Assembly: GCF_000447755.1 (NCBI RefSeq)
Contig: NZ_AUNE01000043.1
Location: forward strand, 1-64,000
Direction of reading: 5' to 3'
DNA: 64,000 nt
Origin: Bacteriovorax sp. BSW11_IV
GTDB lineage: Bacteria > Bdellovibrionota > Bacteriovoracia > Bacteriovoracales > Bacteriovoracaceae
In this document: positions 4,823 to 54,633 of the stretch, in pieces
How the letters are laid out: each line of letters starts with the position of its first letter
Numbering within the stretch: the stretch's first letter is position 1
Made by a program: the position numbers and the translations under genes
The notes under the pieces: model-generated
The model's database searches: none
What the model was told of the DNA's origin: nothing
What the model saw: only the letters and a program-made list of their open reading frames with translations

Positions 4823-7800
4823 CTACTTACAATAAATATGGTGACCCCAACGATAGCCTTGGAAGAAATATCCTGTACCTGTGGCCCTATTATCATCAGC
4901 GTCATCGGCAGAGTCAATAATCGAGTAGGTACGTACAGAGTTTGGATCAAAGCCTGAATCCTCTCCAATAAAACCACCGTTATTTGGTTGAGGTGAGAAG
5001 TCTCCAAAAGTCGCCCCATTTCTTGTTTTCCCACCAGAGTCATCATCAGATGTCACACCCTTGTCACAGTAGGCCTCTCCAAGAGCGCGGATTTTTGTGT
5101 ACACTTCTTGAGACAGTTTTGGTTCACCCGTTTCCATAATGAAGTCAGTGTCTACAAGACCACCACCTGGAGCATCTTCACCAGTTCCATCACCTGAAAT
5201 AAAGCGGTTAAAGTAAACCATTAGATCTGTTCCACTTGGGATTTTACAAGTCATTTTTCCATTGTCATCAGTTGTGGCATGGTTTGAACAACAGCCACTA
5301 GAACTTGTTGTTTCTTCACCCAATTCAATACAGCACATGAAGTCTTTATTTGAGAAAATCGCCTGCTGATTAATTCCAGAATCATCAACAACTCTATTTA
5401 GAGGATTGATTGTGTCATTTGTTGCAGCACCGTTACTTGTGACAAGTTGTCCGTAAATTTGTGACATAGAATTTGGATTACTTGAAGTTGCGTTGTAATC
5501 AAATGAGTTTGCTTCAAAATTTGCTCTATCATCCCATGCAAAAAGACCAGGTACAAGATTTTGAGGATCATCGTTACAGTAAACCGGCTCGTAAACCATT
5601 TGCGGAATACCAGCTAGTTCAAAGCGTGAAAGTTTCGTTGCATAATAGAGATCGTTACCTGGATCAAATGGTGTATTGGCCGGTGTTTTTGTTCCCGCAC
5701 TTTCAGAAACTAATCTTCTGTATGGCTTAAATTCAACAATTAGACCTGCATATTGATAGGATTCAGGAATATCTCCCAGACCCTCAAGAGTGCCTGTATC
5801 ACCAGCGTTTGCGTGAAGAACAAGGTAACCACTTTTATTTTCAAGGCACCATTCTTTTTCAGCAAGGTGATCTTTCGCTCTTGTAACAATAGTACATGAA
5901 GGGATATTTTCGTTAAATGTGATCTCAGCGATTTCATTATTATTAGAGTTATAATATTTCGCTCTAACTGATGTTATGGCCGCTCTATCAGCGATATAAT
6001 TTGGTAAGTAAACGCTTAGATCGTAATCAAATTCACTGTCTTCAAAGTAATTGAAAATCTTATCTGGAGCAGAGCCTGTTCTATATGGAGTAGGCATGTA
6101 CAGAACATCAGAAGAAAGATTATCAAATTGTGTCTCAGGGCTTGTGTCCAAAGTCGCTAGTGCCGTTGCGGCATTGGCGACAACAGTAGGTGGACTCAAT
6201 TCAAAACCAGCGGCCTTGCGAAGAGGTGTTTGAACACAGGCACCATTTTCAGATGGATACAGACAAATTTTTCCATAGTCTTTTTGGTAGTTCAATGTGC
6301 TGGCACCTGGTAGTGGTTCCTTATACAATGTATTGTTGTAGTTTAGACATTGTAGTGATTCGACATTGATATTTAGTGCACGTTTTTTATTCCAATTATT
6401 TGTTCCATCGGCAAATTTACGAACCCATCCGCCACCGCAACAAGTTCTTTTTGCAGTATCATTAAAAGTCTTCCACTGAAAAGCATTTGGAACTTGATTC
6501 TGTGCCACTCTTGGCGCTGTTGCTATAGGTGTTGAACTTACTGGCGCAGCATTTGTTGGCGAGGCCACAGTATAGCGAGAATAGCGTCCATTGGCGGCCG
6601 TATTGTTATAAGGAAAGCTTGTTACATTTAGAATTTGATTATTTTCATTTCCATCTAAATGAGTTCCCTCTGTGTACATTGTGATTGTTTTACCAACTTC
6701 ACGGCAACAACGATTTTGTGTTAGATCCCACGAATTTGCTTCAGTTGAACCAAAGATTGGTTTTGGTTTTCCTTGACTACAAACGAGATCTTCACTCCAA
6801 AAGCGATACTCTGCTTCAGTATTTCCAAAGTCTGATTGCGCTAAAAATAGAGCAGAGTTCTTATGTACTTTATTTGGTGAACAGTCTAGGTCTGTATGAC
6901 AAACTGAACCGGCCCTTCTAAAACATGCATCCTTAGCAAATTTAACAGTTGTAAGCTCAGCTAATACTGGAAGCGCCCTGGCCTCAATATCATCAAAAGA
7001 TGAAAGTCCATTTGGTCTTACGGACTCTACACCACACATATTTTGTGAGTGTCTGTTGAGAATATCAGTTGCTGTTTGAGTCTTCACATAATTGCCATCA
7101 TCATCAAAGGCAGGACAAGTCTGCACGCGCGCAATAGGGTCTAAATTAGAGCTATTACATGAGGCGATCTGATTGATATAATCCGTTCTCTTAAGCAGGT
7201 CATTGCTTCTGTGTTGATCAGCTGGATCGAGGGCCAAGGCCTTACCTGGACGACAGAGTCCAAAATCTTGCGCTCCTGCACTTGCTGTATTTTTTCCAAA
7301 GAAGAGGGCAGCATTGTAAGTGATATTTGTAATGACTTTACTGTCAAGAATTCCATCACCAGTTCCACCAACATAACTACTTGGGCGACCTAGTACATCG
7401 GCCTCTTGTCCATAAAGAATATTTGAAAGTGAACTTGGTGCTCTGATCACTTCTTTATTAAAGTTGTTATCATTTAGTCCAGCACAGTAGAAGTTTGGTG
7501 CACAAGTGAAAAGCTTTTGTGTATTAGCATTTGTTAGGTCTGATGTTGGCGTCAGCTTACAAACTGAACCAGCACCTCTATAGACACATCTTTTCTTATT
7601 CGTCGTTTGAAAGCCGTCAAAGATAATGCTAGCAAACGTTGCATCTGCAGATTCATCGTTTAACTTTTCATCCGCACTTGTTGAAAACTTAGGCAAATAA
7701 GTTTTATAACTTCCAACATCGGCACACGTGTATTCCCAACCAAGTTGAGTCACGCAATCGGCATCAACATTACATTGGTGGAAACGCTGACAAGTGGCCC

Positions 7801-50547: not shown

Positions 50548-50726
50548 TTAATTCCCCCAAACAAATGATGCTGTGCTTATACCGCATTGTGTTGTGCTTG
50601 TTTAGAGCTAGTGTCATTTTTACAAGGGCCAAAATGGGAACCGTGAAAAAGGTGCAATTGGGCCCTGGGGCCAGAAGATTTCGAGGGCATTTCATTGAAT
50701 TTACTAGGAATACTTGAGTGAAAAAG

Positions 50727-50744
50727 TTGGCACGAGGATTGCTT
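50727..50744 (+). promoter_or_regulatory. Consensus sigma-54 promoter with no gene downstream
   Basis: TTGGCACGAGGATTGCTT matches TGGCACG-N4-TTGCW at every fixed position, with GG (50729-50730) and GC (50741-50742) ten bases apart. It faces right; transcription would start near 50754. The nearest plus-strand gene begins at 51690. Confidence 0.75.
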
Positions 50745-50753
50745 ATAGTATTA

Positions 50754-50911
50754 ACAAGAAAGCCGGACAATATACAGGCCTTGGTTACGATTTAAAATCG
50801 GTCCTTTTGTCCCACCTATACCGGCATCATTAAAGTGGATAAGAATTTATCCCCTTAATCCAAATCAATATCCTATCTTACCATTTAAATTTGTACCAAG
50901 GCCCTCTTGTT
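50754..50911 (+). ncRNA. Candidate structured noncoding RNA driven by sigma-54
   Basis: No ATG occurs on the plus strand from the predicted start to the end of the gap. Complementary pairs are GGCCTTGGT (50777-50785) with ACCAAGGCC (50895-50903), GCCGG (50762-50766) with CCGGC (50821-50825), and GGATAA (50837-50842) with TTATCC (50847-50852). The first two cross, so they would be a pseudoknot or alternative folds. A 9-bp stem at 50904-50922 may mark the end but lacks a T run. The rest of the gap 50548-50726 shows no gene. Confidence 0.4.
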
Positions 50912-51559
50912 TTAAACAGGAGCGCCCTTGAGGATTGGTAGAATCTCTTTAACGCCTTTGGCGATCATTTCGATTGAGATTGCCAGAAGAATTATACCAA
51001 AGACCCTTGAAAGAACGCTCATTCCCACCATGCCTAGTTTTCTACCCAGAGTTCTTGAGCTTCTTAGAATAACGTATACGACTACACCCATAGATATAAT
51101 TACCAGGATCGAACCAAGCCACTGTTCAAGTCCACTTAGTGATTTACCTTGAATAATGGCCGTTGAAATACTTCCAGGTCCGGCCAACATTGGAATAGCT
51201 AGTGGAACAATCCCTAAGTCTGGACGGTTTTCAAAAGTTTCCATTTCGCTTTTATTAATTTTAGTCTTACTCGGAGAGGCCGTGATCATACTGAAGGCCA
51301 TACTAAGAAGTAGGATTCCACCACCGATAGTGAATGAAGGAATACTAATTCCAAACATATTAAGAATGTTTTGTCCAAAAATAAGACTTATACAAAGAGT
51401 AACAATAACCGCTATTGAACACGTTTTAGAAACCGTCACAATATGTTGTTGACTAAAGTTGTCTGTTAACGACAAAAAAATTGGAATCGCACCAAGCGGA
51501 TTAATAATCGTTAAAAGAGTAATCATAAATTTCAAAATATCAGTCTTATCTGCTGTCAT
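50912..51559 (-). CDS. MarC-family integral membrane protein
   Basis: A 215-residue protein with six hydrophobic segments. Family features are TIINPLGAIPIFLSLT near the N-terminus and GIVPLAIPMLAGPGSIST in the middle. Function is not established for the family; despite the name it is not tied to multiple antibiotic resistance. It runs toward the candidate ncRNA, so a long transcript from the sigma-54 promoter would be antisense to it. Confidence 0.92.
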   Translation of the reverse strand: MTADKTDILKFMITLLTIINPLGAIPIFLSLTDNFSQQHIVTVSKTCSIAVIVTLCISLIFGQNILNMFGISIPSFTIGGGILLLSMAFSMITASPSKTKINKSEMETFENRPDLGIVPLAIPMLAGPGSISTAIIQGKSLSGLEQWLGSILVIISMGVVVYVILRSSRTLGRKLGMVGMSVLSRVFGIILLAISIEMIAKGVKEILPILKGAPV

Positions 51560-52969: not shown

Positions 52970-54013
52970 ATGGCCGAACACAGATTGTCCTTATTTTTAA
53001 AGATAATTATACTTTTTCACCTAACGGTGATCGCTTGGTTTTTTAACCAAATATTTAATCATTATTTGTTTCGCTATGAAGTCTACAACCAAGAAAAAAA
53101 ATTAACAGAAATTCAAGTCTCTTATGCTAAAGAAGTGGAAGCTTACTTTGATGGCCATTTAAAATTTGTTAACTCTTTAGCAAATTCTCCCATTTTTGAT
53201 GGTTATGATTCTCAAAAATTTATGCCTAAATTAAAACTTCTTGGCGAAGTAGAGAAACGATTTATAAGAATTTTTGTCGTTAATGCTGATGGGACATATT
53301 ATACCGCAGACAATCCTGGAAATACTTTCTTGGGAGGTCTTCATTCTTTGGATAACTCTGATCCAAAATCACCTTTGAAAAACACAAAGAAAAGACATTA
53401 TTGGCAAAAACTTGTGCGCGACAATGTGGACAATAAATACATGACCTATGTAACGGCTCCATTAATCGCCTATGTCTCTGAGTATAGGCTTGTGCTTGTA
53501 TTGGCAACCATTATAAGGGATGGAAAAGTTAAAGGGCTAGTTGGAGGTGGTGTTGAGTGGAATGAATTTGATAAATTTATTAAACGATTGAATGAAAGTT
53601 ATAAACTTGATGATTCATATTGGCCTTCGGTCATCCATCGCAGTGGTGCTTTTTGGTATCACTTTGATAATCGTAAAAAATTGGTGCCGATCTCTGATCA
53701 AGATGGAAATCAAATTTATGATCAATTTGGAAATGTTCTCGTTGTAAGTGATTATATCCAATACGATAAGAATGATCAGTTTGCGCAAATTGGTCGAAAG
53801 TTAGTAAAAGGCGAGCGTGGAGTTAGCGAATTTCGCTATGAAGGTAATCACCTTATTTGTAGTTATGGACCTATTGATAAGATAGAAGATTATTCGATGT
53901 TAATGGCCAAGGTTGTGTCTAAACCAAATGGCCATTACTTCTTTATTCTTTTGATAATAATGAACTTTTTTATCGTCGGACATATATACCGCTTCTTGCG
54001 AAAATATATCTAA
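52970..54013 (+). CDS. Cache-like sensor protein without an output domain
   Basis: A 347-residue protein. A membrane helix at residues 8-28 and another at about 322-340 flank a large periplasmic region that looks like a double Cache sensor (FIRIFVVNADGTYYTAD, RHYWQKLVRDN, YMTYVTAPLI, GLVGGGVEWNEFDKFI). After the second helix only a few residues remain. Such domains normally feed a kinase, cyclase or chemoreceptor; here it must signal through a partner, or be a remnant. It converges on the next gene with a four-base overlap. Confidence 0.75.
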   Translation: MAEHRLSLFLKIIILFHLTVIAWFFNQIFNHYLFRYEVYNQEKKLTEIQVSYAKEVEAYFDGHLKFVNSLANSPIFDGYDSQKFMPKLKLLGEVEKRFIRIFVVNADGTYYTADNPGNTFLGGLHSLDNSDPKSPLKNTKKRHYWQKLVRDNVDNKYMTYVTAPLIAYVSEYRLVLVLATIIRDGKVKGLVGGGVEWNEFDKFIKRLNESYKLDDSYWPSVIHRSGAFWYHFDNRKKLVPISDQDGNQIYDQFGNVLVVSDYIQYDKNDQFAQIGRKLVKGERGVSEFRYEGNHLICSYGPIDKIEDYSMLMAKVVSKPNGHYFFILLIIMNFFIVGHIYRFLRKYI

Positions 54014-54633
54014 TCTATTTTATCCCATGAAACATCATTTCCGAGAGTCACTCCAGAGATTGTTTTTTCAACATCTTTTTTAATGAATGGAAACTCTAGT
54101 TTTTCTAGTTCATCAAAAGACTCATCGAAGGCTATTGTAATTGTTCTTGGTACAAAGTCTGTTAAAGAGCTAAGGAAATAATCCTTTGGCAGGTTTTGCA
54201 TTAGGACATCTGTTTCTTCTTCTTCAATGACCTGTTCATTCATTGGTCTTGTCGTTGTGTTTTTAACGATAAGAGCACCTTTGATCTTGTCGCGCGGAAT
54301 ATCTTTTGTCAGATTCCATGTACCAATATGAAAGTAGTCGAGATAGAAGATAGATTTGCCATACTTCAGCTTACGCGGAAGCATTAGGGATTGAAGAAAC
54401 TTGCGGGTCGTTTGGTCCTTCGCTTTTTTACACAGCTTGTCGGCCAAGAGGCTGTCTTCAATACGTATAATGTAGGCGCCCGGAACTTTTGTCGAATTAA
54501 ACAAAAGATACTGAAACCCAATACTGAATAGTGTAAAAAGTTTGTGCTGTGGCAAATGAATGTGATTTGCCGTGTGGTCGACGAGGGATTTTACGCCTTC
54601 ATATAGATCTTGTTTACTAAGTTCGCTGCCCAT
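54010..54633 (-). CDS. Protein of unknown function
   Basis: A 207-residue cytoplasmic-looking protein without signal peptide or membrane helix. It starts MGSELSKQDLYEGVKSLVDH, has a hydrophobic central part and an acidic EEEETD stretch near residue 140. I do not recognise the family. The 290-base gap to fusA contains no other gene. Confidence 0.65.
   Translation of the reverse strand: MGSELSKQDLYEGVKSLVDHTANHIHLPQHKLFTLFSIGFQYLLFNSTKVPGAYIIRIEDSLLADKLCKKAKDQTTRKFLQSLMLPRKLKYGKSIFYLDYFHIGTWNLTKDIPRDKIKGALIVKNTTTRPMNEQVIEEEETDVLMQNLPKDYFLSSLTDFVPRTITIAFDESFDELEKLEFPFIKKDVEKTISGVTLGNDVSWDKID

Follow-up and report, generated by a model that had tools for sequence, protein, structure and literature searches.

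Comparative sequence evidence for a family of sigma-54-driven, structured non-coding RNAs in the Bacteriovoracaceae

The locus described here lies in a 64,000-nucleotide stretch of Bacteriovorax sp. BSW11_IV (contig NZ_AUNE01000043.1, positions 1 to 64,000), the whole of which is referred to below as the window. Its genes were assigned with Pfam, except that the Rrf2 assignment was made by eye. The predicted RNA is intergenic across the members of its family, and its place near fusA is kept. Common upstream neighbours are a cysteine desulfurase and an Rrf2-type regulator; those common downstream are a 207-residue protein of no known family and fusA, towards which the RNA is usually oriented. 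The 207-residue protein, encoded at 54010-54633 of the window on the minus strand, has no Pfam match, and relatives of it lie near the RNA in 22 of the genomes compared. The features of the locus are as follows.

50626-50642, no strand: candidate enhancer-binding-protein site GGGCCAAAATGGGAACC, a looser match found by eye, with two extra bases
50651-50666, no strand: candidate enhancer-binding-protein site GGTGCAATTGGGCCCT, the window site picked by the motif search
50728-50742, plus strand: sigma-54 (-24/-12) promoter TGGCACGAGGATTGC, with GG-N10-GC spacing
50754-50911, plus strand: predicted non-coding RNA, ends approximate (match to covariance model R1 at 50761-50906, E 4e-10)
50762-50766, plus strand: helix x, 5' arm GCCGG, partner 50821-50825 (covariation)
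50777-50785, plus strand: helix y, 5' arm GGCCTTGGT, partner 50895-50903 (covariation)
50810-50817, plus strand: unpaired C-rich motif 1, UCCCACCU (YCCYWYCW motif count)
50821-50825, plus strand: helix x, 3' arm CCGGC, partner 50762-50766 (covariation)
50837-50852, plus strand: hairpin h, GGAUAA-GAAU-UUAUCC (covariation and invariant loop)
50871-50879, plus strand: unpaired C-rich motif 2, UCCUAUCUU (comparable sequence here in many members)
50895-50903, plus strand: helix y, 3' arm ACCAAGGCC, partner 50777-50785 (covariation)
50904-50916, plus strand: U-rich stretch past helix y, a possible termination zone

The sigma-54 promoter proposed in a first-pass annotation of this DNA is present as described, and its box predicts a transcription start near 50754. 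Exact matches to TGGCACGN4TTGC number four in the 3.65-Mb genome, the window box being one of them; with one mismatch tolerated there are 45 sites, a figure that may be compared with 8 for a reversed control pattern. The same genome encodes rpoN (PF04552, E 6.9e-65). A correctly spaced box is found, about 30 nt upstream, in 42 of the 43 family copies described below and, since the promoter was left out of both covariance models (R1 and R2), it is a feature lying outside the models. Among the 37 copies scored first, TGGCAY-N7-GC occurs upstream of 36 with the window included, i.e. of 35 of the 36 others, the sole exception being the first copy in genome G020, where the box ends in GT rather than GC. 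All six loci from the refined search with R2 carry the box, at -28 to -32. In G102 the box is about 50 nt upstream. Elsewhere in the window's own genome, other sigma-54 boxes (L022, L023, L037, L040 and L094) directly precede genes whose products begin in the manner of signal peptides or lipoproteins, which suggests that the RpoN regulon contains many exported proteins.

An expectation-maximisation motif search of the 160 bp upstream of 33 non-redundant members yielded a palindrome, aGggcCAAAa.GaaCc, in 31 of them, with a log-likelihood of 152.8 versus 44-58 in shuffled controls. The search's own pick in the window is GGTGCAATTGGGCCCT; the second candidate, GGGCCAAAATGGGAACC, recognised by eye, lies some 85-100 bp upstream of the sigma-54 box. 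Such an upstream position is usual for enhancer-binding proteins, and the shared palindrome fits, as expected, a candidate site for one. Together with the -24/-12 spacing and the presence of rpoN, this putative activator motif gives the window locus the composition of a predicted sigma-54 transcription unit.

No ATG occurs within 198 nt past the predicted start, in agreement with the ATG-free transcript initially described. Among family copies no open reading frame is kept in place, length or frame; GTG and TTG codons do occur in the RNA sequences. Since a T-rich stretch follows the 3' arm of helix y in 23 of 37 copies, this helix may double as a terminator stem, possibly an unusual one with a long loop. 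The start and end of the RNA, like its dependence on RpoN, are predictions.

Helix x joins the 5' end of the RNA to a site before hairpin h, while helix y begins inside the loop of x and has its partner close to the 3' end; x and y therefore cross. Both of the crossing pairs named at the outset, GCCGG/CCGGC and GGCCTTGGT/ACCAAGGCC, lie where they had been placed and do cross. For the window sequence by itself, 23 of 1000 dinucleotide shuffles reach the score of the crossing pair and the ordinary fold has z = -2.1; this signal being only mildly unusual, the case was decided by comparison across relatives.

A plain DNA search with the window returned mostly promoter-only matches, and DNA similarity alone initially led to another sRNA family, one that has the promoter sequence in common with the window RNA. 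One of the promoter matches, in genome G016, shows the same layout with other letters: GGTTGG/CCAACC replaces GCCGG/CCGGC, and the arms of y are ACCCTTGATCT/AGATCAAGGGT where the window has GGCCTTGGT/ACCAAGGCC. This copy also lies near marC and fusA, and its sequence, used as the query, retrieved further members. Covariance model R1 was made from nine relatives and contained helices y and h only, with no promoter. MAFFT had placed the window wrongly in helices x and y, so the window was excluded from R1 and its match to the model is an independent test; the next-best match in the 64 kb has E 0.13. Among 129 genomes of the bacterial family, R1 identified about 36 with the RNA, in one copy each except for two in G020. 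All these matches have E values below 1e-5 other than that in G102 (E 0.006), which was accepted because promoter and pseudoknot are present. The set scored first comprised 37 copies in 36 genomes, window included. The two G020 copies are tandem and diverged (L145:3819-3969 and L145:4129-4277), one having GT in its -12 element.

Refined model R2, made from 36 copies, brought in five further members with clear matches (E 5e-11 to 1e-8) and a marginal one in G019 (E 0.008), giving a family total of 43 copies in 42 genomes, about one third of the 129 sampled. Weak model matches in G012, G026, G035 and G030, as well as a second match in G083, had no promoter and were dropped. Absence of the RNA from a given genome is weak evidence, because some assemblies are incomplete. 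A search of 368 genomes of the phylum found none outside the bacterial family at E 1e-4, and order- and class-level searches covered just the same 129 genomes. The core DNA pattern occurs in eight records among about 85,000 species genomes, all from the window's group and including a Halobacteriovorax marinus isolate (contig MAAO01000002.1). Rfam 15 gave no match at the window locus up to E 5 and none of relevance in other members.

The helices differ in sequence from member to member. Variants of x include GGTTGG/CCAACC, GCCGG/CCGGC, GGTCGG/CCGACC and TTGAGG/CCTCAA, with GGCCGG/CCGGCC in a same-genus relative; helix y, which also covaries, is GGCCTTGATC/GATCAAGGCC in many members. At hairpin h, GAAT is found in all 37 copies examined and four stem pairs show changes on both sides. 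With positions anchored on the helices, a treatment that leans towards the structure, pairing is seen in 99.5% of cells for x (9 both-side changes), 100% for the core of y (23) and 89% for h (61), and not one of 1000 shuffles of the 3' letters gave pairing or both-side changes as high for x, y or h. In the model alignment of 36 copies, y and h together contain 86 both-side-changed cells, compared to 19.6 after shuffling (none of 500 shuffles being as high), and have a covariation of 0.516 versus 0.176; shifting the partner by one column lowers their pairing from 96% to about 50%. The covariation of x does not come from model fitting, since x was in no model. Comparison of the sequences thus argues that x and y form a real pseudoknot, with x, y and h covarying across genera. 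A second pairing, GGACAA/UUGUCC, competes with x in the window and in the same-genus relative and may represent an alternative state. Promoter and paired bases are both conserved in relatives, so the RNA passes the alignment check by which the first-pass annotation would have refuted it.

A second family of sigma-54-driven sRNAs is represented in the window's own genome on contig C3 at 5817-5945 (L021:5817-5945). Its -24/-12 surroundings are 97% the same as those of the window RNA over 30 nt; it has conserved segments (GUGUGUGUGUAGGAG, GAAAGGAUUUUUUC and AUGUCUCUC) as well as a strong intrinsic terminator. DNA matches to it, some of them weak, occur in 92 of the 129 genomes, and Rfam has no relevant match. 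A palindrome, CAGTCA-N6-TGAC, is present in 27 of 27 members, beginning 65-114 bp upstream of the sigma-54 box; a separate enhancer-binding protein probably binds there. The palindromes being different, the window RNA and this second family probably answer to different activators. Shorter sigma-54-driven RNAs at L092, L096, L097 and L086 (genomes G091, G104, G079 and G149) are closed by a long stem, contain motifs resembling UCCYACCU, and are possible cousins of the window RNA.

The unpaired parts of the RNA contain a C-rich motif of UCCYACCU type. Counted as YCCYWYCW, it occurs twice in 20 of the 37 RNAs examined and once in 14, where 0.12 would be expected from the flanks; three of the 37 RNAs have no motif as so defined, and motif 2 is degenerate in some members. 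Because the stems vary freely while UCCYACCU is kept, the scaffold looks made to present these motifs, and the two unpaired copies are likely to be the working surface of the RNA. The RNA probably acts in trans, and the simplest role for the motifs would be to pair with G-rich parts of mRNAs close to start codons. The sequence AAGGTRGGA upstream of ATG, a single strict motif counted in eight member genomes, was not enriched (56 occurrences versus 53 for the reversed pattern), so that mRNA pairing near start codons is something we infer. One AAGGTRGGA site, kept in two close relatives before a gene resembling, by eye, that of the iron-sulfur subunit of succinate dehydrogenase, was judged too weak to support a claim. 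Pairing between the window RNA and the second sRNA family, considered by eye, was likewise set aside, the complementarity not being kept in the window. No Hfq (Pfam PF17209) was found in the window's own genome at E 0.001, in an assembly about 98% complete, though the gene may have diverged or may fall in a gap of the assembly; lacking a Pfam Hfq, the organism is unlikely to employ the RNA in the classical Hfq-dependent mode.

There is thus strong support for a structured non-coding RNA, driven by sigma-54, whose promoter is conserved and whose paired bases are conserved and covary; promoter type, fold and conservation are all backed by comparative sequence evidence. A chance promoter match lying atop a chance fold could appeal to the 2.3% of shuffles that reach the crossing stems of the single sequence, but homologues sharing promoter, fold and locus refute that explanation, whose probability is negligible. 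The first-pass annotation had suggested an undescribed small RNA acting either in trans or as marC antisense; the RNA itself has stood up to comparison, the antisense option has not. In the window, the predicted 3' end of the RNA does abut the stop of the convergent marC at 50912, and antisense action at the 3' end of marC, or collision with its transcription, might be supposed. Yet marC directly follows the RNA in just two genomes, that of the window (G000) and its one same-genus relative (G001), different genes on either strand occupying that place elsewhere, and the conserved part of the RNA stops short of marC, all of which makes this explanation highly improbable. Of 36 loci, about 24 have a convergent gene immediately downstream and about 12 have one on the same strand. 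The latter loci would accommodate a leader of the downstream gene, just as the available GTG and TTG codons would accommodate a small protein with a non-ATG start. Against such readings stand the convergent majority, the lack of reading frames conserved in place, length or frame, the ATG-free window sequence and the covariation of the stems at the RNA level, and we regard a leader or small protein as very unlikely. Since the downstream gene varies, with marC in that place in the window's genus alone, a conserved role as marC antisense or as a leader is excluded.

A more serious rival accepts the RNA gene as real and makes it a protein-binding decoy acting through repeated UCCYACCU, in the manner of CrcZ with Hfq/Crc. 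The repetition of the motif and its near constancy across genera while the stems change would suit a decoy, as would the unenriched AAGGTRGGA before ATG in the eight genomes and the occurrence of the same motif in short sigma-54 RNAs without overall similarity. On the other hand, some members have one copy of the motif, or none as defined, and we know of no protein that reads UCCYACCU; on balance, a decoy appears rather unlikely. We favour, with a probability of roughly 0.68, a stand-alone sigma-54 RNA gene in which a pseudoknot scaffold carries C-rich motifs that bind mRNAs in trans. An enhancer-binding protein bound upstream would activate RpoN polymerase at the promoter (50728-50742), and the product would be an RNA of about 155-165 nt that starts near 50754. 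Its helices x and y would cross into the pseudoknot, with hairpin h projecting between them and the two UCCYACCU motifs left unpaired and presented by the scaffold. These motifs could then bind G-rich stretches of mRNA, probably around translation start sites, and target expression would be altered in trans whenever the signal of the enhancer-binding protein was present.

The Bacteriovoracaceae have obligate bacterial predators among their members, and the literature consulted seems to contain almost nothing on RNA control in this family. An RNA gene family is now defined there by coordinates, promoter, enhancer motif, fold and presence or absence over 129 genomes, and whether RpoN-switched RNAs steer the predatory cycle is a question directly testable in cultivated Halobacteriovorax. 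A pseudoknotted sigma-54 sRNA working without Hfq would be unusual. More tentatively, and with the odds against it at present, this predator lineage without recognisable Hfq may run several RpoN-switched sRNA families through at least two kinds of enhancer site, some of them displaying UCCYACCU on rigid scaffolds, of which the pseudoknot described here would be one; if so, the set would constitute an undescribed, chaperone-independent layer of RNA control.

Regulatory RNAs under sigma-54 are already known. The Qrr sRNAs of Vibrio, controlled by LuxO and sigma-54 with distal activator sites, resemble the window RNA as short stand-alone RNAs with sigma-54 promoters and such sites. They differ in being Hfq-dependent, in having several copies per genome and an intrinsic terminator, and in lacking a pseudoknot of this type; the window RNA, for its part, has no Rfam match and no Hfq detected in its own genome. 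CrcZ and CrcY of Pseudomonas, driven by CbrB and sigma-54, bind Hfq/Crc through A-rich motifs. They share with the window RNA the promoter class and repeated unpaired motifs, and are the model for the decoy explanation, but their motifs are A-rich, they are longer and they have no such pseudoknot core; here too the window RNA has no Rfam match. LhrC and RNAIII are C-rich anti-Shine-Dalgarno sRNAs, comparable in offering unpaired C-rich stretches as the proposed contact site; their promoters and folds are different, the motif here is UCCYACCU, and its pairing with targets is a proposal. GlmY and GlmZ of enterobacteria have a sigma-54 promoter and, like the window RNA as proposed, work beyond their own locus. 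Theirs is a different fold and a different route, acting via RapZ on glmS (PMC7073468), and again the window RNA has no Rfam match. Small RNAs, among them attack-phase sRNAs and merRNA, are also reported for Bdellovibrio bacteriovorus, likewise a predator and of the same broad group. According to that study (PMC3627812), three of them have FliA motifs, merRNA contains a c-di-GMP riboswitch, and significant homology is absent outside B. bacteriovorus; the family described here was found only in the window's bacterial family. A literature search, including Bdellovibrio small RNA and sigma-54, found no report of the window RNA. What is new, relative to these systems, is a sigma-54 RNA that belongs to no Rfam family, has a conserved pseudoknot and was found in a single bacterial family.
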